In this document: positions 33,024 through 64,000 of the stretch, one piece after another | Numbering within the stretch: the first letter of the stretch is position 1 | Layout of the letters: every line of letters starts with the position of its first letter | Assembly (NCBI GenBank): GCA_009746045.1 | Contig: RPFO01000296.1 | Coordinates: 1,682,388-1,746,387, forward strand | Origin: Mesostigma viride | Lineage: Eukaryota; Streptophyta; Mesostigmatophyceae; Mesostigmatales; Mesostigmataceae | Direction of reading: 5' to 3' | DNA: 64,000 nucleotides | Program-made: the position numbers and the translations under genes | Notes under the pieces: generated by a model | Seen by the model: only the letters and a program-made list of their open reading frames with translations | Told to the model about the DNA's origin: nothing | Database searches by the model: none

Positions 33024-33099
33024 TAAAATGCCGCGTCATCATCACACAAGCAGCAACACAAGTGCCAGGCATGCACTATATTAAAGGCAAGGTCCATAC
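33012..33099 (-). other. Intron of the transposase gene
   Basis: 88 nt on the minus strand, CAG|GTATGG ... TGCATGCAG|AGC. The downstream side continues in the frame of the main transposase part. The upstream side is open in that frame for a short distance only, so another frame break lies near 33130. Confidence 0.6.
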
Positions 33100-33121
33100 C
33101 TGCCACAAAACTGGGGAGTGC

Positions 33122-42683: not shown

Positions 42684-42856
42684 TCAACGCTCCGAGAACA
42701 GAACCACGGTCGCGCATGTGTTGTCCACGTCGGCGTGCTGGCTCTCGGCGAGCGAGCAGGCGAGCGTGACCAGCTCCTCGGCTGCCTTCTGCGCGCCCTG
42801 CTCTGCGTGGTCCATCACCAGCCGCACTGCCTCGCCGGGGGTGAGCACGTCCCACA
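42684..42856 (-). CDS. PP2C last exon
   Basis: Acceptor CGCCCAG|TGTGGG; the junction codon gives G-V-W-D-V-L. Ends V-D-N-T-C-A-T-V-V-L-F-S-E-R-TGA at 42684. Confidence 0.9.
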
Positions 42857-45800
42857 CTGGGCGGGGGGGAGGGGGGGGGAGACAGCGAAGAAAGGTGAGG
42901 CAAAGGGAAGGAAAGCACGGGGAGCAATGGGGTTCAGTACAAGAGGGCATGTCCCGCACATGGGGGGGATGAGCACGGCGGAAAAAGGGACGCGACCAGA
43001 AAATGATTGGGTTCAGTACATGCAAAGGCATCCCACCTGGGGGGGGGTCCCACAGGGAAGAACGGGAAGGGACAGCAGCAGAGAGGGCAGGGAGGGAAGG
43101 CAAAGGGAAGGAAAAGAATGGGGTTTGGTACGAGGGAGAGCATCCCATGCTGGAGGGGGGGAAGAATGGGACGGGAAGGCAAGGAAACGGGCTGGAGATC
43201 AGGGAAGGGAGCGGGGACAAGGTGGGGGCACTGGTTCGCTTGAAGGGAGCACGTCCCACACTGGGGCAGCAAGGAAGGGGAAAAATGCCGAGGCAGGAAG
43301 GGGGAGGGGGATGTTGGGGCCAAGGGAGGACCTGACTTTAGCACAAGAGAGCATATGCCAGGCCGGGAGCCAAGAAAAGGCGAGGAAGCACGGGAAGGCA
43401 CAGGCGGGGATGTGTGGGCACCACATTGTAGGCTATGAAACGAAAGGAGAGGGGATCGAGAAAACACCACACTTGAACAGGAGACATTGGCGGCATGTGC
43501 GACAGGCGGCATGAACCACATCCACGCTACTGGCACCTGCCCCCACCTGCCCCTGTGCCTGGCCGCTCACCTCCGTCCGACGCCAGAATGAGGCATTTGT
43601 AGTGTGGCTCAATCGCCCAGCTGGTCACCTCGGGGGTGGTGATAACACCGCCGCGCCTGGCAGCGGACAGCGGAGGGGTGGGCACCAAAAGAGCAGCCAC
43701 CAGGAGCAGGCATGCGTGACGAGGCAGCAGATGGGCAAGGAAGTCGCAAACCATCATCAGCACGGATGGGCAAAACAGCAGCATTGGCAAACAACAGCAA
43801 TTAGCCACATGGATGCAAAGAGGCAGGACCGGGGGGGGGGGGGGGCTGCGTGAGCACAGTGCAGCATTATGTTTTGTTCACATATTGTTACACGTTGCTT
43901 GCATTTAAAAGTGAGGTTACGTCAGTGTGGTGGGGTGCAAGCATCATGGGGCGGGGGTAGGAGTCTAAGACCTTTCCTATATTTGTCTCTTATTAATTTT
44001 TTGCTTTTGGTCATGGTCCCTCCATTCATGCCTTCCGATGCGCTTCAGGGTCACCAGTATTATTGTTACTCTCTGCCCTTCGATATTGTAGAAAACATTA
44101 AACAGGACATCAAGATCACAGTGCCATTGAGCAAGCGCACAACACGTTGCCTTGATTGACAGACTTGAGCCAAGTGCTTGGGCCATTCCAGACCAAGAGA
44201 GACATCAGATGCAGTATACACAGTTGCGACCTTTCGCATCCTGTCCCTACCCATCCCAAGTGTCCATCCTATTGGTTACCCGATCGTCTCATCATGCCCA
44301 CTATATTAAGCTCTAGTTTTGAAAGCCATGCGCATCATCCTGCGGCTGCCAAGCCGACGGTCGCAACATCGTGTGGCTACTAAGTCAACGGTCCCATCCC
44401 AACACCCTTGCGCATCCTTTCGAGACCAATACACTTAGTGCCCTCGTCTAAGGTAGGCAACCAGCCAAGCTATTCCCACCCCCCCATGGTTAAGCACAGG
44501 TAGCCACCCCCTGCACCACGCCCGCTACTGCAACACCGTCCAGCCATCCCCTCCACTGCATCAAGGTAGCTGCAAACGATGGTCCCCTCCCCCTCCCCCC
44601 CCCCCTTAACTTACGACATGAGCTTGTGCCCCAGCGCGCGCGTGACGCTGATCTGGCAGCCCTTTCCCAGACCCGAGGTGATGCACAGGTAGCCGTCCTC
44701 CAATATCCCTGTGGTGCCTTGGAACTCAGTCTCGATGCGCGTGCGTTCTTGCTCGCAGATGGTGTTGTGGTCCACTGGTGGAGGAGAGCCATGGTGCGAG
44801 GGCAGCGGTGCGTGAAAACACATAGATGCATATTGCAAAGTAGTAGTATAGTATTAGCATTTTATCTTTGATACTATTGTCCACTGGTGGACAAGAGGCA
44901 CGATGTGAGGACAAGGGTGGGAGGGGGGCGCATCACTTGTTAGCGCCATCATTGGTACGCGCCTGTGTTGTCGTCCACGGGCGGACAAGAGGCACCATGC
45001 GGGTGAGTGCAAATGCCTGCATCATAAGATACGACTACAAACCTACTACTATAAATTTAGCACTTTCTCATGCGTGCGCGCCCGTGTGGTATTCCACAGG
45101 CGCGTGGGACACCCTGGAGACGACGGGGGCCGCACTGAGAAAGAGGATGGTTCGGATGTGCAACGTGGGAAGGGGGGGGGGAGCAATGGCCAGAGCGCCT
45201 CCAGAAGATTGTATACTGCAAGAGTATATTCACCAACCTCCCGAGGCGTGTTGGTCGTCCACCAACCAACAGCGCATCACAGGCGCATCACAGGGACAAG
45301 AGTCGTGTGGGAGCACACAAGAGGAAGTCGTGTGGGAGCACCAAGGGTTGTGTGGAAGCACTCAAGAGGTGGCGCATGCTATGTGGGGGCAACGAGCGTG
45401 GTCGATACAACACGGTGATTATGCCCCGCTGGTGCGCGCTGGTTTCGGACGCAAGTTGTCAAGGTAGAGGCTATTCGTTAATTGGGCTCGTGACTGGGGT
45501 CGTGTGCTGGGGTTAGTTGACTGGGGGTGGGAACGGAGGGTCCGGTTGACCACGCTCACGACGTCCGCTACGTCATGACCATCCCCCAACCATCCCCCGC
45601 ATAACCGCCCGACTACCAAAAGAACGGCATGATTGCGTGAGCACCTGACAGCATCTCGCCCGCACTTCCATGTAGCCAACACCCACACTAGCACCCAGCG
45701 AACACAGAACCTCCTTCTATTGATACATGCGTACCCGACAGCATCTCGCCCGCACTTCCATGTAGCCAACACCCATACTAGCACCCAGCGAACACAGAAC

Positions 45801-48800
45801 CGCCTTCTATGATACACGCGTACCCGACAGCATCTCGCCCGCACTTCCATGTAGCCAACACCCATACTAGCACCCAGCGAACACAGAACCGCCTTCTATG
45901 ATACATGCGTACCCGACAGCATCTCGCCCTCGGTCGTGGCCACCTCCTCCTTGCCGGCCACCACGCTTGAGTCGCCCACGTTGGCCACCACCAGGATGTC
46001 CCCTAGGATGAGCGCCACGCTGCACGTCGCGCCAAACTGGCGCACAGCGTGTGCATGAGTTTGTGGTGGTGGTGGTGGGGGGGGAGGAGACGGGGGGGGA
46101 GTGAGGAGGGGGGGGGGGGGGGGGGGGGGGGAAAGGCACGGGAAAAAGAAGAGAGGCTCAAGTCCACGACACCTGGTGGTTCCGGTTGCCTGGGTGCACT
46201 GGGAGTTACCAAGGCGAGGGATAAGCGAGGGCGTTTCGTGGGCCCAAGCGAGTGGTGCGCAGGCAAAGGCGTGCAGGACAAGTGGCTCCCACCTATCGGC
46301 GCGCATGGCAACCACACGAAGAGGTCGGATGCTTCGATTCCAGTTTAATATATCAAGGAGACAACCAGGGCAGGCCAGAAATCGGGAGAATCCAATTAAA
46401 TATAGATCGGGACTCCCCACACGGCCTAACGGGCCATCACGGCCCAACAAGGGCCCCGATCGGACCCCCCCCCGAACCATCCAACAGGCAACCACGCCCG
46501 ACAACCATCCCCCATGAACCTGCACGGGACGCTTCCCCCCCACCCGCCACGCAACCGCAAAAGCACATCCGCCTCCACCACCCCCATGCAACTCCCCCCC
46601 CGGCCTCCCGTGCAACTCCACCGCCATTCTTCAAACCACCATGAGCCCCCACGCAACTCCACCGCCATTCTTCAGATCCCCCACGCACCTCTACCTGGCG
46701 CTTCATCGCGCGCTTGCCCTCCCTGGGCGCGGACACGTACACGGGGGACCCCCAGTTGGTGTCGATCGCGGCCGCCCCCGTGGCCTCATCCCGCGCCAGC
46801 TGGAATGTGCTGTCCCCGAACACGTACTCATGGGGCAGCTCGTCGTACAGCTGCAGCGCCGCCTGGTGGCCCAGCTCAAACGCCTCCACCATCCAGTCCT
46901 CGAGCTCTTCGAGGTCGGGCGTGTGGTGCTGCTCGCCACCTGTTAGAGGAGGATAATAAGGGGGGATCCGACGGGTGTTGGTGGTGGGATGAGGAGTGAG
47001 GTCTGCTGGCGACGAGAAGCATGGAGTGCTTCAAAACAAAACCCCGTGTTTTTTAAGAACAAGCACAGCGGCCAGAACAAGCCACTCACGTCCTTTGACC
47101 CTCTCCAACAGAGCTGATCAAAAAGCAATGCACACACTTACAACCGCTGCATGTATTTAAAAATAGCGCAAAGACAGCACCGCCGTTGCTCCCACAAAAA
47201 TCCGATGTGAGTTTGATTCAATCTTGCCCACCAGAACCTCATCAACAGCCCAACTTACATTGCCTGATCTTACCCACCAGAACCTCATAAACAGCCCAAC
47301 CCACATTGCCTGATCTTCCCCACCAGAAACTCATAAACAGCCCAACTCACACTGCCTAATCTTCCCCACCAGAAACTCATAAATTATAACTCCAACTCAC
47401 ATTGACTGATCTTCCCCACCAGAAACTCGCGGATCGCGTTCCCCGAGGCCTGCGCCGCGCGCTCCCCCAGGAGGCCATGCCCATCTAAGCAGCACAGCAC
47501 CCAGGCCTTGCTGCTGGGCTCACGGGAGCTATCGGTGGCCGCCGCGTTGGCCGTGGGGGACACCGGGGACACGTCCGACGGGGAGGCCCCTGCGCCGGAA
47601 GCATTAGTATCCTCGCGCCGAGACGCGGTGGGCGATGCGGGGGATCGACCCCAGGTGTGTTCGTGGAACCCTGGGTCAAAGTCGACCGAGTCCACCGCCT
47701 GGGTGGGGGGGGGAACGTGGCATTGAGAAAGACTTGTGTCAACGCAAGGGCAAAGCATTACACTGGGAAAGTGAAAGATTGTTGCAAACTCAAACCACTG
47801 AACTACCATGTTCAATATGACCAGCAAGCGAGGAATTCAACAGCAAACATAAAAGAGTACAGTACCGAGCCATGAAGCATTGCATTACATCCATGCATTC
47901 AAACTGGTTATCTGTGTAATGTGTTATAATGTATCATGTGATTCCCATACGCATTGATGCAGGCCATGTCCTACCTGTGCCCTGATTCCCTCAACCCTAA
48001 CACCATCGTTTAGTGCATTCTATCGTCCTGGCATTTGGGAGCCCCGTTTGGAACCATCAGGCTTATAATAGATAAGTAGCGAGATTCGGAGCAGGGCATT
48101 TGCATGCGGCATTGAAGCAAGGAGCTGCATTGCATACAACGTGAAAAACAGGGGTCAGGAGCTCCCAACTCAGCACATTGTGCCAAGTCAGCAACTAAGG
48201 GCTGCGTCGCGAACAACAAGCGCGGAAAGCAACCTCTCGAGAAATACTAGGGGGTTGCCTTGCAAAAGCACTAGTGTACTGTACTAGACCCATTGGTCAC
48301 TAAACTGGTCTTTACAACGCTTGGGCGGTTGCCTTCCAAAGCTGTAGTGTACTGTATTAGACCCATTGGTCACGAAACCAATCACCAAAATGCTTGGGCG
48401 ATTGCCTTGCAAACCGTTGATACTTTGGCCATGCTTTCCTTATTGCATCGAGCATAAAACTGTAAGCCAGCTTTGGAAACCTGAGCTCCGGTACAAAACG
48501 GGTCAGGTTCCACATGTCCAAAAATAGACCTAAGATGAAGGCCTACTCAACCACACAGTGCGGCGACACAACACTTTGGAAGGGGCCAGCACGGCACAAT
48601 ACGGTTGATTGTGTTTCATACATAACGCCAACTATTGCCGGGCACTCCACAATCCAAGGAAAACAAACTAGCTACGAGGTAGTAGGCATTTTCTGAGGCA
48701 GGGCGACAGGGGAGAGGCGAGTTTGTCACTCCGGGCTTCTTCCCGAGTGAGCCAGCAAGAGCGACGGTAGTCAGCTCATGCGGCCGCTAACCAGTGCAAT

Positions 48801-49194
48801 GGATTGCGATTAGTGCTAATGTCCCGCCGGCAATATATATACATATATATGCTTCCTTTCCCGAGTTCGATTTTATTGATAGCAGGGTAAGCATCTCCGG
48901 ACAATGTGGTAGGCATTCGACGAGAAATATTAGCACGCTGTGCAACCGCCTCGTCGTAAGCCCAACCAACTGTGAGGGCATCCAGGGCAAACCGCGCGAC
49001 TTCCATATACTCACTACGTAATCTTGATTCAAGTCTCCATATCGATTTCCGGGAAGGGTATAGAGGCCTACGTCGCACTTCACAAGATACCGCCCAGATC
49101 TCGGGGAAAAACTTGTCGGTGGAGGGTAATAATTAGATACGACGGCCAGCCTCGACTTCCTCTGAGTGCCATTGCACTCTTGTCCAGCTTCCAT
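42684..49194 (-). CDS. PP2C-family protein phosphatase (7 exons, minus strand)
   Basis: Ser/Thr phosphatase of the metal-dependent PPM/PP2C fold. I assemble seven exons with matching phases: 49194-49015 (start uncertain), 47698-47401, 46939-46695, 46036-45913, 44774-44615, 43656-43571, 42856-42684. Family motifs in order: L-N-Q-D (49.03 kb), C-C-L-D-G-H-G-L-L-G (the D-G-H-G metal site), F-G-A-T-C-S-V-A-L-I, A-N-V-G-D-S-S-V-V, S-V-D-H-N-T, V-T-R-A-L-G-H, P-E-V-T-S-W, L-A-S-D-G|V-W-D-V-L (codon split across an intron) and V-D-N-T-C-A-T-V-V. The Gly after R-A-L is followed by H where PP2Cs usually have D, which would remove one metal-coordinating Asp. Introns are 0.6-1.3 kb and crowded with copies of the neighbouring exon edges. 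The N-terminal exon is the least certain. Confidence 0.85.
42857..43400 (-). repeat. ~100-bp tandem copies of PP2C last-exon acceptor and 5' edge
   Basis: At least five degenerate units upstream of the real acceptor, with exon-like edges near 42950, 43030, 43145, 43255 and 43353. Each has a C-rich tract, a CAG or similar, and a TGTGGGACGTGCTC-like start. The inter-unit part (GTTCAGTACAAGAGGGCA on the plus strand) also recurs. Confidence 0.82.
43571..43656 (-). CDS. PP2C exon 6
   Basis: Acceptor GCTGCCAG|GCGCGG, donor GACGGAG|GTGAGC. Encodes G-G-V-I-T-T-P-E-V-T-S-W-A-I-E-P-H-Y-K-C-L-I-L-A-S-D-G. Confidence 0.9.
43657..44614 (-). other. PP2C intron 5
   Basis: No repeat of the exon edges is obvious here. 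A G14 run lies near 43831-43845 and a C14 run near 44594-44605. Confidence 0.5.
44615..44774 (-). CDS. PP2C exon 5 (D-H-N-T and R-A-L-G motifs)
   Basis: Acceptor CTCCACCAG|TGGACC; with the last G of exon 4 it makes Val, giving S-V-D-H-N-T. Donor ATGTC|GTAAGT. Confidence 0.88.
44860..45300 (-). repeat. Copies of PP2C exon 5 acceptor and 5' edge
   Basis: Four degenerate copies of 'TTGTCCACCAG|TGGACCACAACACC' lie at about 44880, 44972, 45095 and 45258 on the minus strand. The first keeps CCACCAG|TGGACAA. Spacing is 90-160 bp. Confidence 0.7.
45640..45912 (-). repeat. 88-bp tandem copies of PP2C exon 4 3' edge and donor
   Basis: Three units of ~88 bp. Each begins with the exon end GGCGAGATGCTGTCGG or a one-base variant, followed by an intact GTACGC donor in at least two. 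The remaining ~60 bp (GTTCTGTGTTCGCTGGGTGC..) is intronic and also repeated. Confidence 0.92.
45913..46036 (-). CDS. PP2C exon 4 (G-A-T and G-D-S motifs)
   Basis: Acceptor TGTGCGCCAG|TTTGGC, donor CTGTCGG|GTACGC. Encodes F-G-A-T-C-S-V-A-L-I-L-G-D and V-A-N-V-G-D-S-S-V-V-A-G. Confidence 0.88.
46085..46135. repeat. G-rich tract upstream of PP2C exon 4
   Basis: Nearly pure G on the plus strand (G20 or longer), so a C-rich tract on the transcript side just before the exon 4 acceptor. Confidence 0.9.
46695..46939 (-). CDS. PP2C exon 3
   Basis: Acceptor TCTAACAG|GTGGCG, donor CGCCAG|GTAGAG. Encodes an acidic helix (D-L-E-E-L-E-D-W-M-V-E-A-F) and Y-V-F-G-D-S-T-F-Q-L-A. No frameshift. Confidence 0.8.
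47210..47400 (-). repeat. ~56-bp copies of PP2C exon 2 3' edge and donor
   Basis: Three further copies of the exon end (GAGTTTCTGGTGGGGAAGAT, then a GT donor) follow the real one. The donors read GTGAGT (real), GTGAGT, GTGGGT and GTAAGT, each followed by TGGGCTGTT..ATGAG in the copies. Confidence 0.85.
47401..47698 (-). CDS. PP2C exon 2 (D-G-H-G metal site)
   Basis: Acceptor CCCACCCAG|GCGGTG. Donor CAAT|GTGAGT; the split codon T|GT gives Cys across the intron. Contains a Ser/Ala/Pro-rich insert before C-C-L-D-G-H-G. Confidence 0.85.
47699..49014 (-). other. PP2C intron 1 (if exon 1 is right)
   Basis: ~1.3 kb. It holds a pair of ~70-bp near-repeats at about 48245-48330 and 48325-48420 (CTAGTGTACTGTACTAGACCCATTGG). 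No other feature was seen. Confidence 0.4.
49015..49194 (-). CDS. PP2C exon 1 (tentative)
   Basis: Open from an ATG at 49194. It encodes Y-T-L-P-G-N-R-Y-G-D-L-N-Q-D-Y-V, where N-Q-D fits the N-terminal metal-binding Asp block of PP2C, and ends at a strong donor (TACGTA|GTGAGT). Phase 0 matches the start of the next exon. An upstream acceptor or other start is possible. Confidence 0.55.
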
Positions 49195-51080: not shown

Positions 51081-51083
51081 TTT

Positions 51084-51595
51084 TCTAGTAGCGTGCCGTT
51101 CTTGCTACATGGTGAGAGCTGCACGTCTGCGCTGTCTTACTAGCGCGCCGCTCTTGCTACACAGTGACAGCTGCACGTCTGCGCTGTCTTACTAGCGCGC
51201 CGCTCTTGCTACATGGTGACAGCTGCACGTCTGCGCTGTCTTACTAGCGCGCCGCTCTTGCTACACAGTGACAGCTGCACGTCTGCGCTGTCTTACTAGC
51301 GCGCCGCTCTTGCTACACAGTGACAGCTGCACGTCTGCGCTGTCTTACTAGCGCGCCGCTCTTGCTACACAGTGACAGCTGCACGTCTGCGCTGTCTTAC
51401 TAGCGCGCCGCTCTTGCTACACAGTGACAGCTGCACGTCTGCGCTGTCTTACTAGCGCGCCGCTCTTGCTACATGGTGACAGCTGCACGTCTGCGCTGTC
51501 TTACTAGCGCGCTGCTCTTGCTACATGGTGACAGCTGCACGTCTGCGCTGTCTTACTAGCGCGCCGCTCTTGCTACAGAGTGACAGCTCACATCT
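51084..51595. repeat. 52-bp tandem satellite (~10 copies)
   Basis: Units around TACTAGCGCGCCGCTCTTGC, TACAYRGTGACAGCTGCACG and TCTGCGCTGTCT. Only a few positions vary (ACATGG versus ACACAG). Confidence 0.95.
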
Positions 51596-52473
51596 GCAGG
51601 TCTACGTTGTTTCCATAACCCTACGGGGCTTTGCAAGGCAAAACCCCCTTTTGTCCGATCATGGTACCTTCCCTTGCGTCATGCCGCGGTCCGTTCACAC
51701 GCAGTCATCAAGGACCCCCGGCGGCATTTATTTTCGCCAAGGGGTTTAGCAAGGCACATTTTCACGACGAGCTTCTGTTGGGCGCCAGGCTGGCTAGGAT
51801 CATGTGCTGCTTGCCGTTGTTGAATACATCGTTCATCCGCCATCCATCTGCTGGCTGGCAATGTCCGCCCTAGCCTGCGCGTATTCGCTGCTGCACGGTC
51901 ATGTGACAGAGAAGGCGTTGCCAAAGGCCCTGCGCATGGGAAATCAACCATAAACTGTTTTGTTTCGACAAAGTTCTTTTGTGTGTGTGTGGTGGGGGAA
52001 GGGTTGTTATTCTACCCTGCTGGCACGTGGGGTGGAACAGAGGGGACAATGAGGGCGAGGGACTTTCGGGGTTTGCGATGGGATGGGTGGGGAATGAGCA
52101 CCGCAAAACCTAACAATCTTTTTTGTCATAGCTGCAACTGCAATATCTAAAGGTGCAAGTCGAGCAAGCAAGAAGCCTTGCCATGGAAATCATTAGCAAT
52201 GTGGGGTCTGTGCCCTTTCTGATTCTCCAACCATTCCCTCTCGTGTCGCAATCCACGTATTAGTACTTTAAAGATTCTGGGGTGCCTGGTTTAGGAATCG
52301 CCCCTCCCTTGTCCGTCGGCTCCCCTGCACCTAAGCATTCCTTTTCTACAACACCCCTGCACTCCGTCAAGCTGGCCTAGGTCGCGCATGACTGTGTGCT
52401 TATTCACCCTTTGTTGACTGTGCGCCAACACCCCGTGCCGGTCCACCCCCTTGCCACTTTCTCGTCCATCCAG
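51596..52473 (+). other. RIC1 5' region, no exon recognised
   Basis: Searched for the RIC1 N-terminus (Y-x-x-G-W-P motif) without success. The ~25 nt before 52474 is a good polypyrimidine tract. Confidence 0.35.
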
Positions 52474-52581
52474 CACTGTGTCAAGCTGGGCGAGGTGGCG
52501 CGCGACCGGCAGTCCTTGGAGGAGGATGGCATTAACCGCCACGCGCTCTGGCAGCCCGACACATCCACGGTGGCGGTGTTG
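52474..52581 (+). CDS. RIC1: RIC1 exon a
   Basis: Acceptor CGTCCATCCAG|CACTGT, donor GTGTTG|GTGGGT, phase 0 at both ends. Encodes H-C-V-K-L-G-E-V-A-R-D and A-L-W-Q-P-D-T-S-T-V-A-V-L. Confidence 0.85.
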
Positions 52582-55500
52582 GTGGGTCCTGATTGCAGAT
52601 GATGGTCCTAGTAAGAACCTCCGTTGTCTACAAGGGGGGGGCGCTTTGTGCAGCCCGAAACTCTGGGGTGGTGGTTCTGGTGGGTTAAATGCAGTCCTAG
52701 TTAGTACCCTAATATCTAGGAATGATTGTTTCTTCTTTCTGGTGCCCCACTGCGTCTTCTCATTCCTCTCCCATGCCATATTTAGATTGATCATAAATCA
52801 CCATCCAGCTGTCCTTAGTCATGATGAACGTATGCCATGCCCCCGTCTTGATTGGGCTGGTGGCGTCATGGTTGGTCTGGTTTGGTGTCGTGTGGCCATG
52901 AACCTGCGCAGTTGTGTCACTCAGTAGGCGATGCCATGTGGAGCCCCTGTCTCTGAAATGCCGCCACACCCCATGTTGTTTCGCCTATGTCCCTTCCCTT
53001 TATCTGTCCTCATCTTCCATAGCGTATCGGCCCCTCTCCTCTTCTCCTCTTCTCCTCTTCTCCTCTTCTCCTCTTCTCCTCTTCTCTTCTCCTCTTCTCC
53101 TCTTCTCCTCTTCTCCTCTTCTCCTCTTCTCCTCTTCTCCTCTTCTCCTCTTCTCCTCTTCTCCTCTTCTCCTCTTCTCCTCTTCTCCTCTTCTCCTCTT
53201 CTCCTCTTCTCCTCTTCTCCTCTTCTCCTCTTCTCCTCTTCTCCTCTCCTCTTCTCCTCTTCTCCTCTTCTCCTCTTCTCCTCTCTCTTCTCCTCCTCTC
53301 CTCTTCTCCTCTTCTCCTCTTCTCCTCTTCTCCTCTTCTCCTCTTCTCCTCTTCTCCTCTTCTCCTCTTCTCCTCTTCTCCTCTTCTCCTCTTCTCCTCT
53401 TCTCCTCTTCTCCTCTTCTCCTCTTCTCCTCTTCTCCTCTTCTCCTCTTCTCCTCTTCTCCTCTTCTCCTCTTCTCCTCTTCTCCTCTTCTCCTCTTCTC
53501 CTCTTCTCCTCTTCTCCTCTTCTCCTCTTCTCCTCTTCTCCTCTTCTCCTCTTCTCCTCTTCTCCTCTTCTCCTCTTCTCCTCTTCTCCTCTTCTCCTCT
53601 TCTCCTCTTCTCCTCTTCTCCTCTTCTCCTCTTCTCCTCCTCTCCTCTTCTCCTCCTCTCCTCGTCTCCTCTTCTCCTCTTCTCCTCGTCTCCTCGTCTC
53701 CTCATCTCCTCTTCTCCTCATCTCCTCATCTCCTCATCTCCTCTTCTCCTCTTCTCCTCTTCTCCTCTTCTCCTCTTCTCCTCTTCTCCTCTTCTCCTCT
53801 TCTCCTCTTCTCCTCTTCTCCTCTTCTCCTCTTCTCCTCTTCTCCTCTTCTCCTCTTCTCCTCTTCTCCTCTTCTCCTCTTCTCCTCTTCTCCTCTTCTC
53901 CTCTTCTCCTCTTCTCCTCTTCTCCTCTTCTCCTCTTCTCCTCTTCTCCTCTTCTCCTCTTCTCCTCTTCTCCTCTTCTCCTCTTCTCCTCTTCTCCTCT
54001 TCTCCTCTTCTTCTCTCCCTTCTCTTCTCCCCTTCTCCTCTTCTCCTCTTCTCCTCTTCTCCTCTCTCTCCTCTTCTCCTCTTCTCCTCTTCTCCTCTTC
54101 TCCTCTTCTCCTCTTCTCCTCTTCTCCTCTTCTCCTCTTCTCCTCTTCTCCTCTTCTCCTCTTCTCCTCTCTCCTCTTCTCCTCTTCTCCTCTTCTCCTC
54201 TTCTCCTCTTCTCCTCTTCTCCTCTTCTCCTCTTCTCCTCTTCTCCTCTTCTCCTCTTCTCCTCTTCTCCTCTTCTCCTCTTCTCCTCTTCTCCTCTTCT
54301 CCTCTTCTCCTCTTCTCCTCTTCTCCTCTTCTCCTCTTCTCCTCTTCTCCTCTTCTCCTCTTCTCTCTTCTCCTCTTCTCCTCTTCTCCTCTTCTCCTCA
54401 TCTCCTCATCTCCTCTTCTCATCCTCTCCTCTTCTCCTCTTCTCCTCTTCTCCTCTTCTCCTGTTCTCCTCCTCTCCTCTTCTCCTCTTCTCATCCTCTC
54501 CTCTTCTCCTCTTCTCCTGTTCTCCTCTTCTCCTCTTCTCCTCTTCTCCTCTTCTCCTCTTCTCCTCTTCTCCTCTTCTCCTCTTCTCCTCTTCTCCTCT
54601 TCTCCTCTTCTCCTCTTCTCCTCTTCTCCTCTTCTCCTCTTCTCCTCTTCTCCTCTTCTCCTCTTCTCCTCTTCTCCTCTTCTCCTCTTCTCCTCTTCTC
54701 CTCTTCTCCTCTTCTCCTCTTCTCCTCTTCTCCTCTTCTCCTCTTCTCCTCTTCTCCTCTTCTCCTCTTCTCCTCTTGTCCTCGTCTCCTCTTGTCCTCG
54801 TCTCCTCTTCTCCTCTTCTCCTCTTCTCCTCTTCTCCTCTTCTCCTCTTCTCCTCTTCTCCTCTTCTCCTCATCTCCTCTTCTCCTCTTCTCCTCTTCTC
54901 CTCTTCTCCTCTTCTCCTCATCTCCTCTTCTCCTATTCTCCTATTCTCCTATTCTCCTCTTCTCCTATTCTCCTCTTCTCCTCTTCTCCTCTTCTCCTCT
55001 TCTCCTCTTCTCCTCTTCTCCTCTTCTCCTCTTCTCCTCTTCTCCTCTTCTCCTCTTCTCCTCTTCTCCTCTTCTCCTCTTCTCCTCTTCTCCTCTTCTC
55101 CTCTTCTCCTCTTCTCCTCTTCTCCTCTTCTCCTCTTCTCCTCTTCTCCTCTTCTCCTCTTCTCCTCTTCTCCTCATCTCCTCATCTCCTCTTCTCATCC
55201 TCTCCTCTTCTCCTCTTCTCCTCTTCTCCTCTTCTCCTGTTCTCCTCCTCTCCTCTTCTCCTCTTCTCATCCTCTCCTCTTCTCCTCTTCTCCTGTTCTC
55301 CTCTTCTCCTCTTCTCCTCTTCTCCTCTTCTCCTCTTCTCCTCTTCTCCTCTTCTCCTCTTCTCCTCTTCTCCTCTTCTCCTCTTCTCCTCTTCTCCTCT
55401 TCTCCTCTTCTCCTCTTCTCCTCTTCTCCTCTTCTCCTCTTCTCCTCTTCTCCTCTTCTCCTCTTCTCCTCTTCTCCTCTTCTCCTCTTCTCCTCTTCTC

Positions 55501-58500
55501 CTCTTCTCCTCTTCTCCTCTTCTCCTCTTCTCCTCTTCTCCTCTTCTCCTCTTCTCCTCTTCTCCTCTTCTCCTCTTCTCCTCTTCTCCTCTTCTCCTCT
55601 TGTCCTCTTCTCCTCTTGTCCTCGTCTCCTCGTCTCCTCGTCTCCTCGTCTCCTCTTCTCCTCTTCTCCTCTTCTCCTCTTCTCCTCTTCTCCTCTTCTC
55701 CTCTTCTCCTCTTCTCCTCATCTCCTCATCTCCTCTTCTCCTCTTCTCCTCTTCTCCTCTTCTCCTCATCTCCTCTTCTCCTATTCTCCTATTCTCCTAT
55801 TCTCCTATTCTCCTATTCTCCTCTTCTCCTCTTCTCCTCTTCTCCTCTTCTCCTCTTCTCCTCTTCTCCTCTTCTCCTCTTCTCCTCTTCTCCTCTTCTC
55901 CTCTTCTCCTCTTCTCCTCTTCTCCTCTCCTCCTATCCTCCCCGTCTGCACAGACGGACAAGAACACGGTCCTTCTCTTCCTGGTGGAGGTGCTGGAGGA
56001 GCAACTGCTGCCCGATGATGTGGTGGCCGACGGCAGCCGCGACAAGGGCCTGCGCAGCGTGAGCGTGTCGCTCCGCTCCAAGATTTTCATCAAGGACGAC
56101 ACCGTGTCGTGGTGCGTGTGCACGCCGCGGGTCAAACCTCCAACCTCGACCCCTTCAACTTGCTGGGTTGTTACAGCACGTATGCACACGTATATACTGA
56201 ACAGGGTGTACTATTCACACAGTACACTGCAGTGTTCGGTAGTGCACTAGTAACAGCTGGTGCTGGGAGTTTCCTGACGTAACTAAAACGTATCCGTATT
56301 GTATAACGCAACTTCTTGGCCTGTCCGCATCCTCCCCTCGTGCCTGACTGCATTTCCTTGCAAAGGGGGCTTGGCGTGGGTGAAAAGGCGGGCGGACAGG
56401 GGCACAGATAATGGCAGGCGTGTGAAAAGGGGACGAGGTGGGTGGCTTCCTTCTTACGGCATTGCCTCAGGGATCCAGGGGAGGAGAGGGATCGGGGGGA
56501 GGTGGACGGGGGACGGAAGTGGACGGGGGGGGCAGGTGGACGAGGAGAAGGGGGTGGGGTGGGGACCGGTGGATGAAACCTTTTGGGAGAGAGCTACATT
56601 GAAGTGCAGTTGATTCGTCTGGTAACTGGTTGTTACATGGTCAGGTGATGGTTGTTTGGGTGTCGGTTTGGTGCACTGGGGCAGCAGCAACGTGCCATCC
56701 TGCTGTTTTTCTGAACATGGGTTGCTACATTTCTGTTGGCTTTTTGATGGATGTGCCACTAATGCACACCATCTTTGTCTAGTCTATGACTTTGTGGTGA
56801 TCATTTTCTATTCTATTTTTGTACCCGATTTGTGTCTTGCTATTTGTGCACAGCTTGTCCCTGGAGGGCGATGCGGACTCCATCCTAGTCGGCCTGTCTT
56901 CGGGGATGGTCCTCTTCCTGTCGTGGAAGGGAGCGGTAAGGACGCATTTTGCCAGCACGTGTGTCACCAGGTGATGGATCCACCGCACCTAAAACACGGT
57001 GGATTTCTGTGTCCCACCACATACACTTGCGGATCGTTTCACCAAACATACCTGTTGTGCTTTCATGGGATTTTCGCTCAGCGATTGCTGCTATTATGCA
57101 TGTCTGACTTCAAGCATAGCTATTTTCAGGCATAGCTGCAAATGTCGCTATCCTTGAAAAGCGGGAAAAGCTTCTCTTTTTTTTCTTTCTTTGACCAAGC
57201 TGATAAAGTCCTCATTCTGTTTTCTTAGTTTCATAGTGTTGCGATTGATAGTGTTGCAATTTTGTAGTGTTGCGACGCCAAGTGGAATGACGGCAGTGGA
57301 GGCTTTGGAGACTCCATTTTGAGGATGGGGGCAGTCTTCAGGCACGATGGCCATGGAACTTGTCTGGGCTATGAGGTGGGATTTGTTAGGGTGTGACAAG
57401 GGGGCAATTTCAAGGGTTGGCGAGTTCTGGTGGGGCAACAACCGAGCCTCCTTTTGATGCCAGCTACTACATGGCCACACTGGCTGATAATAAAACGTTT
57501 GAAAGTACGTAGTCCTGTTTCTAGAAACCTACCTTCATGTGCGCTGCACTTATCATCTGCGCTTCGCTTTTCGTCTGCCTCCGGTCTTTGCTCCCGCCTC
57601 TGTTCTCCCCACGCTTCTTTCCTCCCGCCTCGGCTCTTTCCTCCCACCGCGCCACGCCAGCGGCAAGGCCTGTTGGACCTGTGTGCCAACGACATGCGCC
57701 TCCCTGGGAGCGGCGAAAAGGACCCCCTGGAGCCGGTCGCCATGTTCTACTCCCTGGGGGCGGTGGCCGACCCCGCGGCTGCCAGTAACAAGGACAAAGG
57801 ATCGCTCGCGGCCCAGCCACAGAAGGCAGGCTCCAAGGATGCGGTCAAGGGGGGCCAGCGAGAGAGTGATGGGAACGTGGGCGTGGATGCGGCTCGTATG
57901 GCCCCTAGTGGATACGGCAACGGGATCCCTGTCTCGCATGCGCAGGGTGACGGCAGCAGGGCGAGGGGTTCGTGGGATGGGGGACACCGGCATTCGCAGC
58001 AGAAGGGTCCCCCGGTTCACGTGAGTGGTTGAGCAATAGTGCCTCTTGACCCCGCAGCGTTCGATCACGTTCCGTCGTCTCCCATCCTCTGGACCCCGCA
58101 GCGTTCGATCATGTTCCATCTCATCCTCTGGACCTTGGCTTTCGACCATGTTCCATCTCATCCTCTGGACCCTGCAGCGTTCGACCATGTTCCATCTCAT
58201 CCTCTGGACCTTGGCTTTCGATCACGTTCCATCTCATCCTCTGGACCTTGGCTTTCGACCATGTTCCATCTCATCCTCTGGACCTTGGCTTTCGACCATG
58301 TTCCATCTCATCCTCTGGACCTTGGCTTTCGACCATGTTCCATCTCATCCTCTGGACCTTGGCTTTCGACCATGTTCCATCTCATCCTCTGGACCTTGGC
58401 TTTCGATCACGTTCCATCTCATCCTCTGGACCTTGGCTTTCGACCACGTTCCATCTCATCCTCTGGACCTTGGCTTTCGACCATGTTCCATCTCATCCTC

Positions 58501-61500
58501 TGGACCTTGGCTTTCGATCACGTTCCATCTCATCCTCTGGACCTTGGCTTTCGACCATGTTCCATCTCATCCTCTGGACCTTGGCTTTCGACCATGTTCC
58601 ATCTCATCCTCTGGACCTTGGCTTTCGACCATGTTCCATCTCATCCTCTACCTTCTTTAAAGATGTTTCATCCTGCCCTCGACAAGCAATGTCTGCCTCG
58701 AGCAATGTCTTGAGCAATGTCTGCCTCGAGCAACGTCTCAAGCAATGTCTGCCTCGAGCAACGTCTCGAGCAATGTCTGCCTCGAGGCTGCACTTTCTCC
58801 TGCCCTCATTTTTGCAATCTCACTTACCTTATTTCTCGCGCTTTTGTATCTCGATGCCCCCCCAAACTCCCCCCCAGCAGGCCCGCAGCGCGGTGCGCCA
58901 GGTGGAATACAGCGACGTGATGGGCCTCTTTGCCGCCGTGTTGGCGTCCGGGTCGGTCGCGCTCTGCACCGCGAGCGAGCGCGGACTTCTGACCGCCGAT
59001 ACGTACATGCGCAAACGCTGGCTGTCGTCACGCGAGGCCACCTGCACGGCCATCACCCCTCGCGCCCAAGTGCTCGCGGTCGGGACGAGGGACGGGACCG
59101 TGGACCTGTACGATGTCTCGGACAGCCGGGCGGATCTGCTCCGAAGCGTCTCGATTCTCGACTGGGGCTACACACCGGCGGATACGGGGCCTGTTAGGGG
59201 GTTGGCGTGGACGCCGGACGGGTGGGCGTTTGCGGTCCGGTGGCGTCGAAGGGGGCTCGCGGTCTGGTCGATATCCGGTTGCCGTCTCATGTGCACGCTG
59301 AGGAGGACATCTGGAGGGGTGAACCTGGGGGAGGGGCGGGAGGGGGTGGCGGGCGGGGAGGCTGGCGTGGCGGAGGAAAGAAGTGGGTCGAGTCGCGTGC
59401 GACGGGGCAGCGGGCTGGGGAGCGTGTGTGGGTGGGTCGAGGCGAGATTCGAGAAGGCAAGGCCTGGGGAGCACGAGGGTGGGGGCGGGGCGGATCAGGA
59501 TGGGTCTCAGAGCGGGAGCGCGCGTGGGTTGGACATGACGGGCCGGGGGGGCATGTGCTGGGGCGCGGAGGGGTACCGGCTGGTGGTGGTGGAGGATGGG
59601 CCGGAGCGGGGGGGCCAGATGCTCGTGTTCCCGTTCGCCAAGGGGTGCATGACGTCAGCGGTCGCTCAGAACACGCATGTGTGGCAGATGCTGCAAGCGG
59701 AGGACCGGCTCATGCTGATCCAGTCGGACGAGAACGAGGAGCTGCAGGTACGTGGCCGTTTGGTGGTGGGTCACGAGGGATTCGATTCCTCGATCGAGAG
59801 CTTGTCACTGGGATTTGATACCTCGATTGGAAACTTGTCTCGAGATGGGCTCATGCTGATGCAGGCCGACGAGATCGCGGAGCTTCAGGCACGTTGGTTT
59901 TGTCTAGCGGACAAGATCGCGGAGCGTCAGGCTCGTTGGTTTTGTCTAGCGGACGAGATTGCAGAGCTTCAGTCACGTTGGTTTTGTCTAGCGGACAAGA
60001 TCGCGGAGCTTCAGGCATGTTGGCTTTGTCTAGCGGACGCGATTGCAGAGCTTCAGGCACGTTGGTTTTGTCTAGCCGACGAGATCGGGGACCTTCAGGC
60101 ATGTTGGTTTTGTCTAGCGGACGAGATGGCAGAGCTTCAGACACGTTGGTTTTGTCTAGCGGACGAGATTGCAGAGCTTCAGTCACGTTGGTTTTGTCTA
60201 GCGGACGAGATTGCAGAGCTTCAGTCACGTTGGTTTTGTCTAGCGGACGAGATCGCGGACCTTCAGGCATGTTGGTTTTGCCTAGCGGACAAGATTGCAG
60301 AGCTTCAGTCACGTTGGTTTTGTCTAGCGGACGAGATTGCAGAGCTTCAGTCACGTTGGTTTTGTCTAGCGGACAAGATCGCGGAGCTTCAGTCACGTTG
60401 GTTTTGTCTAGCGGACAAGATCGCGGAGCTTCAGGCATGTTGGCTTTGTCTAGCGGACAAGATCGCGGAGCTCCAGGCACGTTGGTTTTGTCTAGCGGAC
60501 GAGATTGCAGAGCTTCAGTCACGTTGGTTTTGTCTAGCCGACGAGATTGCAGAGCTTCAGGCATGTTGGTTTTGTCTAGCGGACGAGATGGCAGAGCTTC
60601 AGGCACGTTGGTTTTGTCTAGCCGACAAGATCGCGGAGCTCCAGGCACGTTGGTTTTGTCTAGCGGACGAGATTGCAGAGCTTCAGTCACGTTGGTTTTG
60701 TCTAGCGGACGAGATCGCGGACCTTCAGGCATGTTGGTTTTGTCTAGTGGAGGAGATCGCGGAGCTTCAGGCACGTTGGTTTTGTCTAGGGAAACCTGCA
60801 ATTAAGGTAGTGTAGTATAAGGCAGTGTACTTGTTGTAGTTGAAAACATATTAGATCCATGCTCTCCCTGTCCGATGAGAACGAGGAGTGGCAGGTAACG
60901 GGACCGCCTGGTGGTGGGACGCTCGATCAAAAGTCAATAGTGGGATCGAACACCCTCGATAGACTGGGACCTTGTCCCACGTGCTCTCATGCTCACCCCG
61001 TTCGATGAGGACGAGGTGTTGCAGGGTCCTTTCCAATGGAGCGCAAGCAAGTATTGGTAATTGATGTAAATTACTGCATAGTAGCAAGCATGTCAGCACC
61101 ATGCTGATCCAGTCGGATGAGGACGAGGAGTTGCAGGTAAGCATTTTGGCATGGGAGCGATAGCTCGTATTATTGGCCTTACTAACAGTAGCATTTACAT
61201 TTCAATCATGCTCATCCACTCGGGTAAGGATGAGGGGTTGCAGGTATGTTGGTTTTCAGAGCACTAGTGAATATTACTAGAGAGCACTGAACAAATATTA
61301 CCAGTGGTAGCACAGATACCCTAAGGGCATTTACTAGGACACCAGAATTGCAAATATACCCGATTGGGAGGAGAGAGAAGAGCTGCAACCCCGAAACGCT
61401 ATGGTCTTTTAGCACTGGAAGTTGCTCCCTGGCACTGCGCACACGCAGAAGATGCCTCTTGACTTGGTGTTGCCACTAGTGTTATTGTTGCCTCTGGTCT

Positions 61501-64000
61501 TGGTGTTGCCACTTACGAGAGCCCAGGGTCGCGTGCAGGTTCCTTTTCTTTGCGTCCTTCAATTGCGGTAGTGGTTTCTTGGGTTTGGGGTTGTGTTACA
61601 TGGGGCAGTGAATCCCGCTCTGCGCTGCTATACTTTCTCGGAGACAGCCAGTGTGGGCCTGGAAGTTGCGAAAATCGTGGCCATAGGCAGCAACCCGTCA
61701 CAGTCTACCTCCCACCCCCCATCCTTAAGCCCACCCTACCCCACTCACCCCACTCACCAGGTAGAGCACCTGCTTGTTCCCTACCCATCGGTTGCCACCA
61801 ATTCGGGACGTGTGTTTACTCAATCCCCCTTCTTCCCCATGTCCCCCTTCACTTCTCGCCGCCCCAACCCCATCCCCACGCCCCAGGTCCCACACCTGCT
61901 GACCCCGTACTCCTACATGGCCACCAACGCAGGGCCGTGGCTCAATCTCAATGCTGTTTCTTGCCCGATTGCTCCTGTAATGTTTTCGTATTTGATCCAA
62001 CCACCCCCCAGGTACAACACCTGCTGGTCCCCTACTCCTACATGGCCACCAACTGGCCGCTGCAACACGTGGCCGCCAACGACGACAGCACGGACATCGC
62101 GGTGGCGGGCCGTAATGGTGTCGCCCTCTACAACCCGCGTAGCAAGAAGTGGCGTGTGTTCGGTGACGTGATGCAGGAGCGAGCCATCCGCTGCGTGGGC
62201 CTTATGTGGTTCCACCGCACGGTGGTGCTCTGCAACCACCGGCCGGACAACCGGTGAGTAGGACCTACGTTTATTCTTATGCTAGCGTATGTGCCGCATA
62301 TGTTTATTCTCATGCTAGCGCATCCATGGTGGCTATTTTGCGCGGTGGTTCTCGCAACCACCTGCAGGCGCAACAGTGCGCGTCGGAGAACCATTGCTGT
62401 CCTGGCGCATCCCTAGTATTCCTATCCTAGTATCCCTATCCCTATCCCTAGTATCCCTGTTCTAGTATTCATAGTAGTATCCTAGTATACCTATCCCTGT
62501 TCTAGTATTCATAGTAGTATCCTAGTATACCTGTCCTAGTATTCCTATCCTAGTATCCCTATGCTAGTATTCCTGTCCATCCCTAGCATTCCTATCCTAG
62601 TATTCCTATCCCTACCCCTAGTATCCCTGTTCTAGTATTCATATCCTTGTATGCCTGTCCTAGTATCCCTATGCTAGTATCCCTATGCTAGTATTCCTGT
62701 CCATCCCTAGCATTCCTATCCTAGTATTCCTATCCCTATCTCTAGTATCCCTGTTCTAGTATCCATATCCTAGTATGCCTGTCCTAGTATCCCTATCCTA
62801 GTATCCCTATGCTAGTATTCCTGTCCTAGCGCATCCTTAGGATTGAAGTACAATATCGGTCACTGCAGCTACCAGCTGGATAGCCGGTGTGGGGAGGTAT
62901 CGCTCTCCTGGCGGCGTTTCTCCCTCCCTGTTTTCTTTTCGAATCGCTGGCTCTTCCTTTTCCCTTGCGTCCTCCCATGGGTTCTAACGAAAGCTTCCCC
63001 CATCCCTTTTTGTGAGAACCTCACCTCCCACCAACCCATTTACTTCAAATTAGATCACATGCCCCCCAACATGCTGACTCCCCCCCTCCCACGGCGCCCT
63101 TCCTCTGCCCCTCCTGCGCTGCCCCCCCCCCTCCCAGCTTCGAGCTGCTCTTCTACCCCCACTACCACCTCGACGAGTCCTCGCTCCTCTACCGCCTCCC
63201 GCTGAAGAAACAGCCGCTCGCCCTCGACGTCTGCGGCCAGTACCTGCTGGTCGCGACCCCCCCTCTCGAGATCCGCGTCTACCACGTGCGCATGGACGGC
63301 GAGCTGTCCCCGCTCGGATCCCCCTCCGTCCACATGACCATGGTCCGGGACCTGTCCATCATGACCGTCCGGAAGCCGCCCGTGTCGATGCGGTTCGTGC
63401 CAAAGGGAACGTTGATCGAAGACGCGTTGCCCGAGCCCTGGTCCGCGAACAACTCCAGTTCGGCAGGCGTGGGTCTCGCCTCAGGGACTGTACCGTCTGC
63501 TCCCGTGACCCCCGACATGAATGGCCCGAGGGGAGTATCCGCGCAGCCACCCGCAGGGGCAGTGACGGGGAACAGCATCTCACAGGGAGGGCGGGGGATT
63601 GGTGTGCCCGTAGGGCCACATTCGGAGGACGAGGGGGTGGCGAGTCACGGGGTGGTGAGGGCCGCCCCCGATGATGCCCAGCTCCAAGGGGGCTCGGAGA
63701 GGCCTGGTCGGGGACGGGGAGACGCGCATGACAATGTGTCGGGTACCAGCATGACATCGGTGGTGGCTGCCAGCAGCGCATCCCCCGTGAAGTGCATGGT
63801 GCTGCGCACGGACGGCGAGCTGTCCCTGTTGGACCTCGAGCAAGGGAGCGAGCGAGCGCTATTGGAGGACGTGGAGCATTTTTGGCTCACGGTTGGGCGG
63901 CCCAAGGCCGACCCCTGGCTCGTGGAGGAGCTTCCTTGGTGGGCATATGGTCATCGGGGCATGCAGCTTTGGTTCCCGACCGTGCGCTCAGAGAACTCCC
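52474..64000 (+). CDS. RIC1: RIC1 homologue (Rab6 GEF complex subunit), N-terminal part
   Basis: RIC1 with RGP1 forms the exchange factor for Rab6/Ypt6 at the Golgi; its N-terminal half is a WD40/beta-propeller. Seven exons with matching phases: 52474-52581, 55954-56111, 56854-56935, 57661-58020, 58878-59747, 62012-62253, 63138-64000 (open at the window edge). Recognisable RIC1 blocks: V-K-L-G-E-V-A-R-D..A-L-W-Q-P-D-T-S, I-L-V-G-L-S-S-G-M-V-L-F-L-S-W-K-G, L-A-W-T-P-D-G-W-A-F-A-V-R-W..G-L-A-V-W-S, M-C-W-G-A-E-G-Y-R-L, Y-M-A-T-N-W-P-L-Q, D-I-A-V-A-G-R-N-G-V-A-L-Y, L-R-T-D-G-E-L-S-L-L-D-L-E-Q-G and Y-G-H-R-G-M-Q-L-W. Low-complexity inserts (Gly/Ser/Arg-rich, ~100 residues) interrupt exons 4, 5 and 7. 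The first exon(s) and the C-terminus are missing. Confidence 0.92.
52582..52725 (+). repeat. RIC1: Copy of RIC1 exon a 3' edge plus donor
   Basis: At 52666-52715, GTGGTGGTTCTG|GTGGGTTAAATGCAG and TCCTAGTTAGTACC repeat the real boundary GTGGCGGTGTTG|GTGGGTCC..TGCAG and TCCTAGTAAGAACC at 52570-52620. Confidence 0.7.
53035..55935 (+). repeat. RIC1: 2.9-kb pyrimidine-only 8-bp array (CTCTTCTC)n in RIC1 intron
   Basis: About 360 copies of CTCTTCTC with rare variants (CTCATCTC, CTCGTCTC, CTATTCTC). Blocks of variants recur in the same order ~776 bp apart (54395 and 55171), which is higher-order structure. It ends 19 nt before the exon b acceptor (55953), so it acts as an extreme polypyrimidine tract. 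All plus frames lack stops. Confidence 0.95.
55954..56111 (+). CDS. RIC1: RIC1 exon b
   Basis: Acceptor CGTCTGCACAG|ACGGAC, donor TCGTG|GTGCGT. The split codon TG|C gives Cys. Encodes T-D-K-N-T-V-L-L-F-L-V-E-V and K-I-F-I-K-D-D-T-V. Confidence 0.85.
56854..56935 (+). CDS. RIC1: RIC1 exon c
   Basis: Acceptor TTTGTGCACAG|CTTGTC, donor GGAGCG|GTAAGG. Encodes a propeller blade strand I-L-V-G-L-S-S-G-M-V-L-F-L-S-W-K-G-A. Confidence 0.9.
57661..58020 (+). CDS. RIC1: RIC1 exon d
   Basis: Acceptor CCACGCCAG|CGGCAA after a long pyrimidine stretch, donor GGTTCAC|GTGAGT. The second half is a low-complexity Gly/Lys/Ser insert. Confidence 0.8.
58105..58660 (+). repeat. RIC1: 37-bp minisatellite in RIC1 intron
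   Basis: About 15 copies of a unit around TTCCATCTCATCCTCTGGAC and CTTGGCTTTCGACCATG. 37 bp is not a multiple of 3, so it cycles through the frames without stops. Confidence 0.95.
58878..59747 (+). CDS. RIC1: RIC1 exon e
   Basis: Acceptor CCCCCCAG|CAGGCC; the CAGCAG gives a NAGNAG choice (58878 or 58881, one Gln). Donor CTGCAG|GTACGT. It holds the strongest RIC1 similarity (L-A-W-T-P-D-G-W..V-W-S-I-S-G-C-R-L-M-C-T-L and M-C-W-G-A-E-G-Y) around a ~65-residue Gly/Arg/Glu insert. Confidence 0.92.
59861..60795 (+). repeat. RIC1: 42-bp array (22 units) derived from exon e 3' edge
   Basis: Units read A-D-E-I-A-E-L-Q-(A/S)-R-W-F-C-L, 14 residues each, in the same frame as exon e. The E-L-Q matches the exon end (E-E-L-Q) and the unit continues through what would be the intron start. 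In every unit the GT is changed: 13 read CAG|GC, eight CAG|TC and one CAG|AC. The frame stays open from exon e to a stop at about 60813. Confidence 0.93.
60850..61245 (+). repeat. RIC1: Four further copies of exon e 3' edge
   Basis: Copies of ATGCTGATCCAGTCGGATGA..GAGTTGCAG lie at about 60858-60894, 60989-61024, 61101-61136 and 61208-61243. Three retain GT donors (GTAACG, GTAAGC, GTATGT). The third also has an acceptor-like GTCAG 4 nt upstream, so it could act as a mini-exon. Confidence 0.85.
61761..62011 (+). repeat. RIC1: Two upstream copies of RIC1 exon f acceptor and 5' edge
   Basis: ~125-bp tandem units. CACCAG|GTAGAGCACCTGCTTG (61761) and GCCCCAG|GTCCCACACCTGCTGA (61887) precede the real CCCCAG|GTACAACACCTGCTGG (62012). 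The second copy matches through 'TACTCCTACATGGCCACCAA'. Confidence 0.9.
62012..62253 (+). CDS. RIC1: RIC1 exon f
   Basis: Donor GACAACCG|GTGAGT. Encodes V-Q-H-L-L-V-P-Y-S-Y-M-A-T-N-W-P and I-R-C-V-G-L-M-W-F-H-R-T-V-V-L-C-N-H. The junction codon CG|C gives Arg. Confidence 0.92.
62334..62370 (+). repeat. RIC1: Copy of RIC1 exon f 3' edge
   Basis: CGCGGTGGTTCTCGCAACCACC repeats the exon end CGCACGGTGGTGCTCTGCAACCACC (62214-62240). The donor is not kept. Confidence 0.6.
62395..62835 (+). repeat. RIC1: CCTAGTATTCCTATC minisatellite in RIC1 intron
   Basis: Irregular units of 11-15 bp (TATCCTAGTATTCC, TATCCCTAGTATCCC) with larger duplicated blocks (about 62560-62690 against 62695-62830). Confidence 0.9.
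63138..64000 (+). CDS. RIC1: RIC1 exon g (continues past the window)
   Basis: Acceptor CCCTCCCAG|CTTCGAG. Encodes F-E-L-L-F-Y-P-H-Y-H-L-D, a ~110-residue Gly/Ser/Pro insert (about 63430-63790), then L-R-T-D-G-E-L-S-L-L-D-L-E-Q-G-S-E-R and Y-G-H-R-G-M-Q-L-W-F-P. Open at the right edge. Confidence 0.9.

Follow-up and report, generated by a model that had tools for sequence, protein, structure and literature searches.

Donor-edge copies among tandem duplications at exon–intron boundaries in the streptophyte alga Mesostigma viride

Minisatellite-like duplications lying across exon–intron boundaries, termed mirages, have been described in amphioxus in the globin genes BflGb6 and BflGb9 and in Adh3 and PGBD5; in the available parts of these reports, the repeated units measure 10–160 bp, AG or GT occurs in many but not all of the repeats, splicing is reported to be regular by RT-PCR, and variable length from allele to allele is counted among the traits of the class (PMC3087553, PMC3902484). 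Duplication at boundaries has also been connected with intron gain: according to the accessible portion of one account, the potato RdRp gene gained an intron via a tandem duplication across an intron–exon boundary, while in the Rogers-type AGGT duplication an exonic sequence is duplicated directly, with AG and GT at the joints, and an intron is made (PMC4974935). In the streptophyte alga Mesostigma viride, according to the genome paper, introns average 1142 bp and repeats make up 30.1% of intron space; isoform sequencing is also reported there, and the part of the paper available here does not mention boundary duplication (PMC6947507). Neither a donor bias nor green-algal boundary duplications are reported among the literature matches listed. 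Here, we analyze a stretch of 64,000 nt of M. viride nuclear DNA (hereafter the window; contig C1446 of an assembly of 439.9 Mb in 2243 contigs), in which degenerate copies of exon edges lie in the introns of two genes, RIC1 on the plus strand and PP2C on the minus strand, and we follow such copies into further genes. Donor edges stand out in this survey; exon edges in general do not.

Copied donor and acceptor edges in the window and beyond

Both genes were modeled by hand, every intron being of the GT–AG type, and Pfam matches were obtained to the PP2C domain and to the second propeller of RIC1. The PP2C model is identical to the deposited protein P0059 (423 amino acids) once the end of exon 3 is set at 46689. 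The RIC1 model, which comprises 16 exons and reaches 72718 in extended window coordinates, is identical to the deposited protein P0001 (1409 amino acids) once the start of exon 6 is set at 58881. Note that a CAGCAG tandem acceptor is found at the latter site (58875–58881), the second acceptor being the one used in the deposited model. Both deposited proteins rely on the original edges, not on the copies described below. In the edge test, 60-base queries centered on an edge were aligned to the neighboring intron (1500 nt at most), and the scores were compared with those of 500 dinucleotide shuffles. This test was run on the final edges (46689 and 58881); the 200-shuffle, 40-nt-window, crossing-copy and fixed-cut-off analyses used 46695 and/or 58878. 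As thresholds come from random shuffles, repeat counts vary slightly.

On the same strand, 9 of the 26 RIC1 and PP2C edges adjoining introns beat all 500 shuffles, seven of them with at least 8 exonic nt, and none of the 26 did so in the reverse-strand search. An earlier note on this DNA had proposed that degenerate extra copies accompany exon edges, and that they carry exon sequence, splice signal and some intron; both points are confirmed, the copies being direct tandem duplications. The highest scores were those of PP2C exon 4 3′ (89), PP2C exon 2 3′ (67), RIC1 exon 7 5′ (52) and RIC1 exon 6 3′ (51).

The phenomenon extends past these two genes, as the earlier note had surmised. Four outside sets were surveyed: RIC1 introns 8–15, the PP2C paralogues (42 introns), the CCT chaperonins (26 introns) and two kinesins (5 introns). 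Copies with at least 8 exonic nt were found at 4/16 edges in the remainder of RIC1 (donors 3/8, acceptors 1/8), 13/84 in the PP2C paralogues (donors 11/42, acceptors 2/42), 11/52 in the CCT genes (donors 10/26, acceptors 1/26) and 2/10 in the kinesins (donors 2/5, acceptors 0/5). Altogether, donors were copied in 26 cases out of 81 and acceptors in 4 out of 81 (Fisher test, 1e-5), and the reverse strand yielded no edge in any of the four sets. The contrast persisted in a recount with fresh shuffles that left the kinesins out (27/76 versus 5/76) and when only clear models from the rest of RIC1, the PP2C paralogues and CCT were kept (24/65 versus 5/65). With exon-only queries, 17 of 75 donors and 1 of 75 acceptors were copied, so that pyrimidine tracts have no influence on the donor–acceptor contrast.

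Outside the window, true edges were also compared with pseudo-edges, i.e. random positions inside introns, in 500-nt targets; the minimum intron length was 600 nt (760 nt for the pseudo-edges), and the kinesins were left out. True donors were copied more often than pseudo-donors (22/64 versus 19/181, p 5e-5), unlike acceptors (4/64 versus 23/181 pseudo-acceptors), and the two kinds of pseudo-edge behaved similarly (p 0.62). Hence, the proposal that exon edges are chosen over intron positions is upheld for donors outside the window and fails for acceptors. Its broader form, a choice of exon edges in general, is not supported: acceptors lie at or below background, a stop-codon edge is copied, and intron interiors are full of tandem repeats.

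As to sampling, paralogue edges were placed with a profile built from 99 of the 112 retrieved PP2C homologues, or by gap length, using a donor/acceptor matrix derived from 21 introns. Only exon pairs with a model gap inside set limits were used; of these, one pair in the PP2C paralogues, two in CCT and one in the kinesins had no splice candidate. CCT loci L036, L037 and L041 were omitted since their exon gaps are too wide, and C1641 was omitted as an apparent twin of C887; the two kinesin genes were taken from 129 matches. Equal-score exon matches on separate contigs (C1641/C887 and C2/C622) suggest haplotype or recently duplicated contigs.

Individual copies in RIC1 and PP2C

The RIC1 features are as follows, exons being those of the edge test and P0001:

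50458–50595, plus strand, exon 1, no edge copies found
52356–52387, plus strand, copy of the exon 2 5′ edge with 28 exonic nt, unlisted in the earlier note
52474–52581, plus strand, exon 2, both edges copied
52641–52685, plus strand, copy of the exon 2 3′ edge with 39 exonic and 6 intronic nt
55954–56111, plus strand, exon 3, no edge copies
56854–56935, plus strand, exon 4, no edge copies
57661–58020, plus strand, exon 5, no edge copies above threshold
58881–59747, plus strand, exon 6, 3′ edge copied
59849–59894, plus strand, first copy of the exon 6 3′ edge, at the array head, donor GT changed to GC
59868–60789, plus strand, 42-bp array of 22 units in the intron after exon 6
60858–61249, plus strand, four dispersed copies of the exon 6 3′ edge, spaced by 107–130 bp, three with a GT donor
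61750–61926, plus strand, two copies of the exon 7 5′ edge, 125–126 bp apart, AG retained
62012–62253, plus strand, exon 7, copied at the 5′ edge and weakly at the 3′ edge
62299–62368, plus strand, weak copies of the exon 7 3′ edge
63138–64000, plus strand, exon 8, continuing beyond the window, no 5′ edge copies above threshold

Of the RIC1 copies announced by the earlier note, that at the 3′ edge of its exon a exists at exon 2 (edge at 52581) and not at exon 1, whereas those at the 3′ edge of its exon e (our exon 6) and at the 5′ edge of its exon f (our exon 7) are strongly corroborated. The copy announced at the 3′ edge of exon 7 is weak, scoring 26 against a threshold of 25 with its intronic part only; a fixed, unshuffled cut-off retrieves 30 exonic nt at 62340–62368. 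Five copies of the exon 6 3′ edge were tabulated. Among the 21 units scored in the 42-bp array, the donor position reads GC in 12, TC in 8, AC in 1 and GT in none. The frame of exon 6 stays open over the entire array (58050–60815). A coding role of the array was considered and discarded: three of the six frames run through it without a stop, and it is removed as intron in the deposited protein. In addition, RIC1 intron 2 contains a 2.9-kb tract (53035–55934) in which TCTCCTCT is repeated about 364 times and which was masked in the repeat-family counts and set apart in the 40-nt-window comparison presented below.

The PP2C features are as follows, exons 1, 2, 4, 5 and 7 being those of the hand model and P0059:

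49015–49194, minus strand, exon 1
47401–47698, minus strand, exon 2, 3′ edge copied
47221–47400, minus strand, 46–50-bp tandem copies of the exon 2 3′ edge with its donor
46689–46939, minus strand, exon 3, 3′ end from the deposited model
46600–46688, minus strand, repeats of about 41 bp from the exon 3 donor onward, zero exonic nt in the edge-test alignment
45913–46036, minus strand, exon 4, 3′ edge copied
45643–45912, minus strand, 89-bp tandem copies of the exon 4 3′ edge (17 exonic nt, donor and intron)
44879–44999, minus strand, two copies of the exon 5 5′ edge, at shifts of 109 and 203 nt
44615–44774, minus strand, exon 5, 5′ edge copied
43571–43656, minus strand, exon 6, no edge copies (hand model, edge test)
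43228–43265, minus strand, copy of the exon 7 5′ edge with 33 exonic nt, weaker copies nearby
42684–42856, minus strand, exon 7, including the stop codon
42350–42636, minus strand, degenerate copies, in the 3′ flank, of the stop-codon edge, which has no splice site

The edge test recovered each of the copies predicted at the 3′ edges of exons 2 and 4 and at the 5′ edge of exon 5. GT is present in the three tabulated copies of the exon 2 edge, and the donor is lost in a fourth, outermost unit; the nearest copy of the exon 4 edge is identical at 46 of 47 positions. The 3′ edge of exon 3, not listed previously, is copied as well, in its intronic part only. The prediction for the 5′ edge of the last exon holds in part: its 38-nt copy (blastn E 4e-6) was equaled in 0 of 200 shuffles, but the edge does not beat all 500 shuffles of the edge test (38 versus 43), the C-rich flank being the probable reason. 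The predicted copying of the stop edge is borne out by two to three copies (42636–42616, 42367–42350 and 42417–42387), against a shuffle average of 0.01–0.03; since no splice site is involved there, we rejected the idea that copying requires a splice signal. No copies were found at the start-codon edge of RIC1 or PP2C.

With respect to the state of the copies, exon-derived parts in the window resemble the edge more closely than intron-derived parts do (0.72 versus 0.61) and also resemble each other more closely (0.73 versus 0.61, the exon part being higher in 19 of 26 pairs), presumably because they are recopied from an unchanging exon. GT is retained in 52 of the 65 donor copies above threshold, whose mean identity is 0.88; in the window list made by hand, which also takes in weaker copies, GT is present in 11/13 and AG in 5/10. 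Retention of GT and AG is near the level predicted by identity, the splice dinucleotides fading approximately like other bases. Selection either to retain or to destroy GT in the copies was therefore rejected. The same holds for a frame constraint on the shifts, multiples of three accounting for 5/23 shifts in the window and 22/49 outside, the latter with the caveat that copies within an array are interdependent. The median shift in the outside set is 119 nt. Some arrays are young, such as those of L032 (three 76-bp steps, 98% identity) and L038 (seven 48-bp steps, 92–95%); the 89-bp copies at 45643–45912 in PP2C also rank with the youngest. Multi-copy donor arrays, partly very young, lie in the CCT genes at L034 3955, L038 4909 and L032 7385 (gene orientation).

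Possible origins of the junction copies

On balance, we lean toward the view that the junction segments are intron-dwelling tandem duplications of the amphioxus mirage kind, which would be tolerated at donors and mostly removed at acceptors. Segments of tens to a few hundred base pairs would duplicate head to tail at any point of the transcription unit; the duplicates would then multiply or decay in a minisatellite-like manner. Duplications within exons would be selected against; crossing copies were observed at 0–1.3% of the exon-interior positions lying at least 40 nt from an edge in the two window genes. When a duplication crosses a donor, the original donor would stay first in the transcript and the second copy would turn intronic, so that splicing would be left unchanged. 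By contrast, a duplication crossing an acceptor would place a full rival acceptor first in the transcript, and most such duplications would consequently be removed. The exon would be fixed and act as a master copy, so that copies of exon ends would still be recognizable after purely intronic duplicates have faded; in simulations, which like those of uniform events used random sequence and single events only, a conserved exon eased the detection of copies 1.1–2.05-fold. When this detection bonus is taken into account, acceptors fall short of the background with P 0.044 at its lower value and 5e-5 at its upper value. As an outcome, introns would gain length at the 5′ end and would hold donors in reserve.

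Several results speak against this view. Within the window, copying is about equally frequent at acceptors and at donors (3 versus 4 of 13; 4 versus 5 in the recount), and the pseudo-edge test displays no donor excess there (3/12 donors and 4/12 acceptors, compared with 18/32 and 11/32 pseudo-edges). A nearby direct copy was found for 33% of the 40-nt windows at edges and 38% of those in intron interiors (exons, 8–14%; outside genes, 18%; reverse orientation, at most 6%). The RIC1 stop edge has no copy. In the outside sets, the edges of the paralogue families are computed and unannotated, and the acceptor deficit relative to pseudo-acceptors is not significant on its own (p 0.24). Moreover, the donor rate of 34% exceeds the pseudo-donor rate multiplied by the largest detection bonus (about 21.5%; P 0.012), so tolerance and visibility together may fall short of explaining it. 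Finally, selection at acceptors predicts that surviving acceptor copies have lost AG, and this prediction failed: 8 of 10 aligned acceptor copies keep AG, and 5 of 10 do so in the list that includes weaker window copies. A simple form of acceptor selection is thus unsupported by the AG state, though each list holds only 10 copies.

The excess of donors over pseudo-donors, and the part of it left above the largest detection bonus, would be expected if new duplications favored 5′ splice sites, e.g. because of R-loops, pausing or template switching where transcription passes from exon to intron, and if these duplications were otherwise neutral. We regard such donor-directed mutation as a possibility that is well short of probable. 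Consistent with it, repeat density is raised 40–160 nt inside the donor (23–27%, versus 16–17% deeper; 50 introns from the rest of RIC1 and the PP2C paralogues), but this zone is where many donor copies themselves sit. In addition, the PP2C stop edge is copied without any splice site, and nothing at acceptors independently points to a process linked to splicing. It is with the same reserve that we consider a process tied to transcription or splicing that re-copies exon ends and their donor into introns at 5′ splice sites; if it operates, introns would extend from the donor side and store donors able to replace the original one or to seed exons. A rather unlikely account is that introns are simply rich in ordinary minisatellites, which include edges by chance, the effect being exaggerated since exons do not drift. 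The window introns are full of head-to-tail arrays (units of 37–124 bp), and edges there are no hotter than intron interiors: 6 of the 26 edges have crossing copies, as do 24% of intron positions, yet only 3.7% of the latter outside arrays. Likewise, 6 of the 12 repeat families in the window introns have at least 8 exonic nt, where a simulation with even events and conserved exons expects 18–25%, i.e. a mild excess (P 0.009–0.054 for an expectation of 0.17–0.25). Chance inclusion would nevertheless hardly produce the donor–acceptor and donor–pseudo-donor contrasts, and exon conservation is equal on both sides of an intron.

We think it improbable that the copies are retained for a function, e.g. 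because decoy or spare donors modulate splicing or make donor turnover possible. In its favor, the copied donor is at least as strong as the original in 14 of 49 cases, the RIC1 copies at 61136 and 61243 match the consensus at as many positions as the original does, and GT is kept in 44 of 49 copies where 39 are expected. In the wider set, however, GT retention is what identity predicts, the scored units of the 42-bp array have no GT donor at all, and the mean donor score is 5.2 bits against 8.1 for the originals (in part because the scoring matrix had also served to pick the paralogue donors). Least credible of all is misassembly that repeats junction segments. Long-read assemblies are error-prone in tandem repeats, but many of the copies are 70–90% identical to the edge and differ from one another, which assembly cannot create. 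The published genome (441.8 Mb) was obtained from PacBio, Illumina and optical maps according to the available part of its description and may differ from the assembly used here (PMC6947507).

Implications, neighboring elements and known systems

If duplications of the mirage kind are tolerated at donors, they offer a way for introns to grow without breaking genes. Intron lengthening and splice-site turnover have mostly been inferred from old, faded sequence, whereas about one third of the sampled donor edges (26/81) bear self-copies of graded age, so that the process could be watched within one genome. With the difference between donors and acceptors, the general idea that the splice site transcribed first prevails becomes a prediction on which duplications survive. 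A practical caution is that spliced alignment may settle on a copy, as one aligner run did here.

Elsewhere in the window, a Replitron HUH endonuclease domain is present in an open reading frame (ORF) at 22111–23454. A second ORF, resembling those of long interspersed nuclear elements (LINE-like, 9094–10530), has many M. viride protein matches, the first nine being 83–98% identical, and some of its relatives also bear ordinary gene domains. A reverse transcriptase fragment lies at 38698–39135. The four adjoining minus-strand ORFs at 30898–34194 perhaps form one unknown mobile element; the three that were tested gave no Pfam match at E 0.01.

Compared with what is described for amphioxus in the available parts of the reports, the Mesostigma copies share boundary-spanning tandem duplication, the retention of some AG and GT, and the involvement of both 5′ and 3′ boundaries. 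They differ in distribution: amphioxus mirages are in few genes of one animal lineage and affect both boundaries, whereas in Mesostigma about one third of the donor edges and one twentieth of the acceptor edges sampled are copied, and a background was measured. As far as the accessible account of the potato RdRp gene goes, its duplication and those of Mesostigma both cross one boundary, but a new intron resulted in potato and none is seen here. With the Rogers-type AGGT duplication, as outlined in the same portion of that account, Mesostigma shares direct duplication, the difference being that existing introns grow; no intron between two exonic AGGT copies was found in RIC1 or PP2C, where the copies sit within introns bounded by the original edges. 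Thus, the link to new introns suggested in the earlier note is not sustained, no copy being seen to create one. Ordinary intronic minisatellites are matched by the head-to-tail arrays of the same introns; outside the window, however, duplication takes in exon sequence at donor edges more often than it affects matching random positions in introns. In conclusion, the Mesostigma copies are donor-biased mirages occurring at high frequency in a streptophyte alga, a variant on the mirages of amphioxus.

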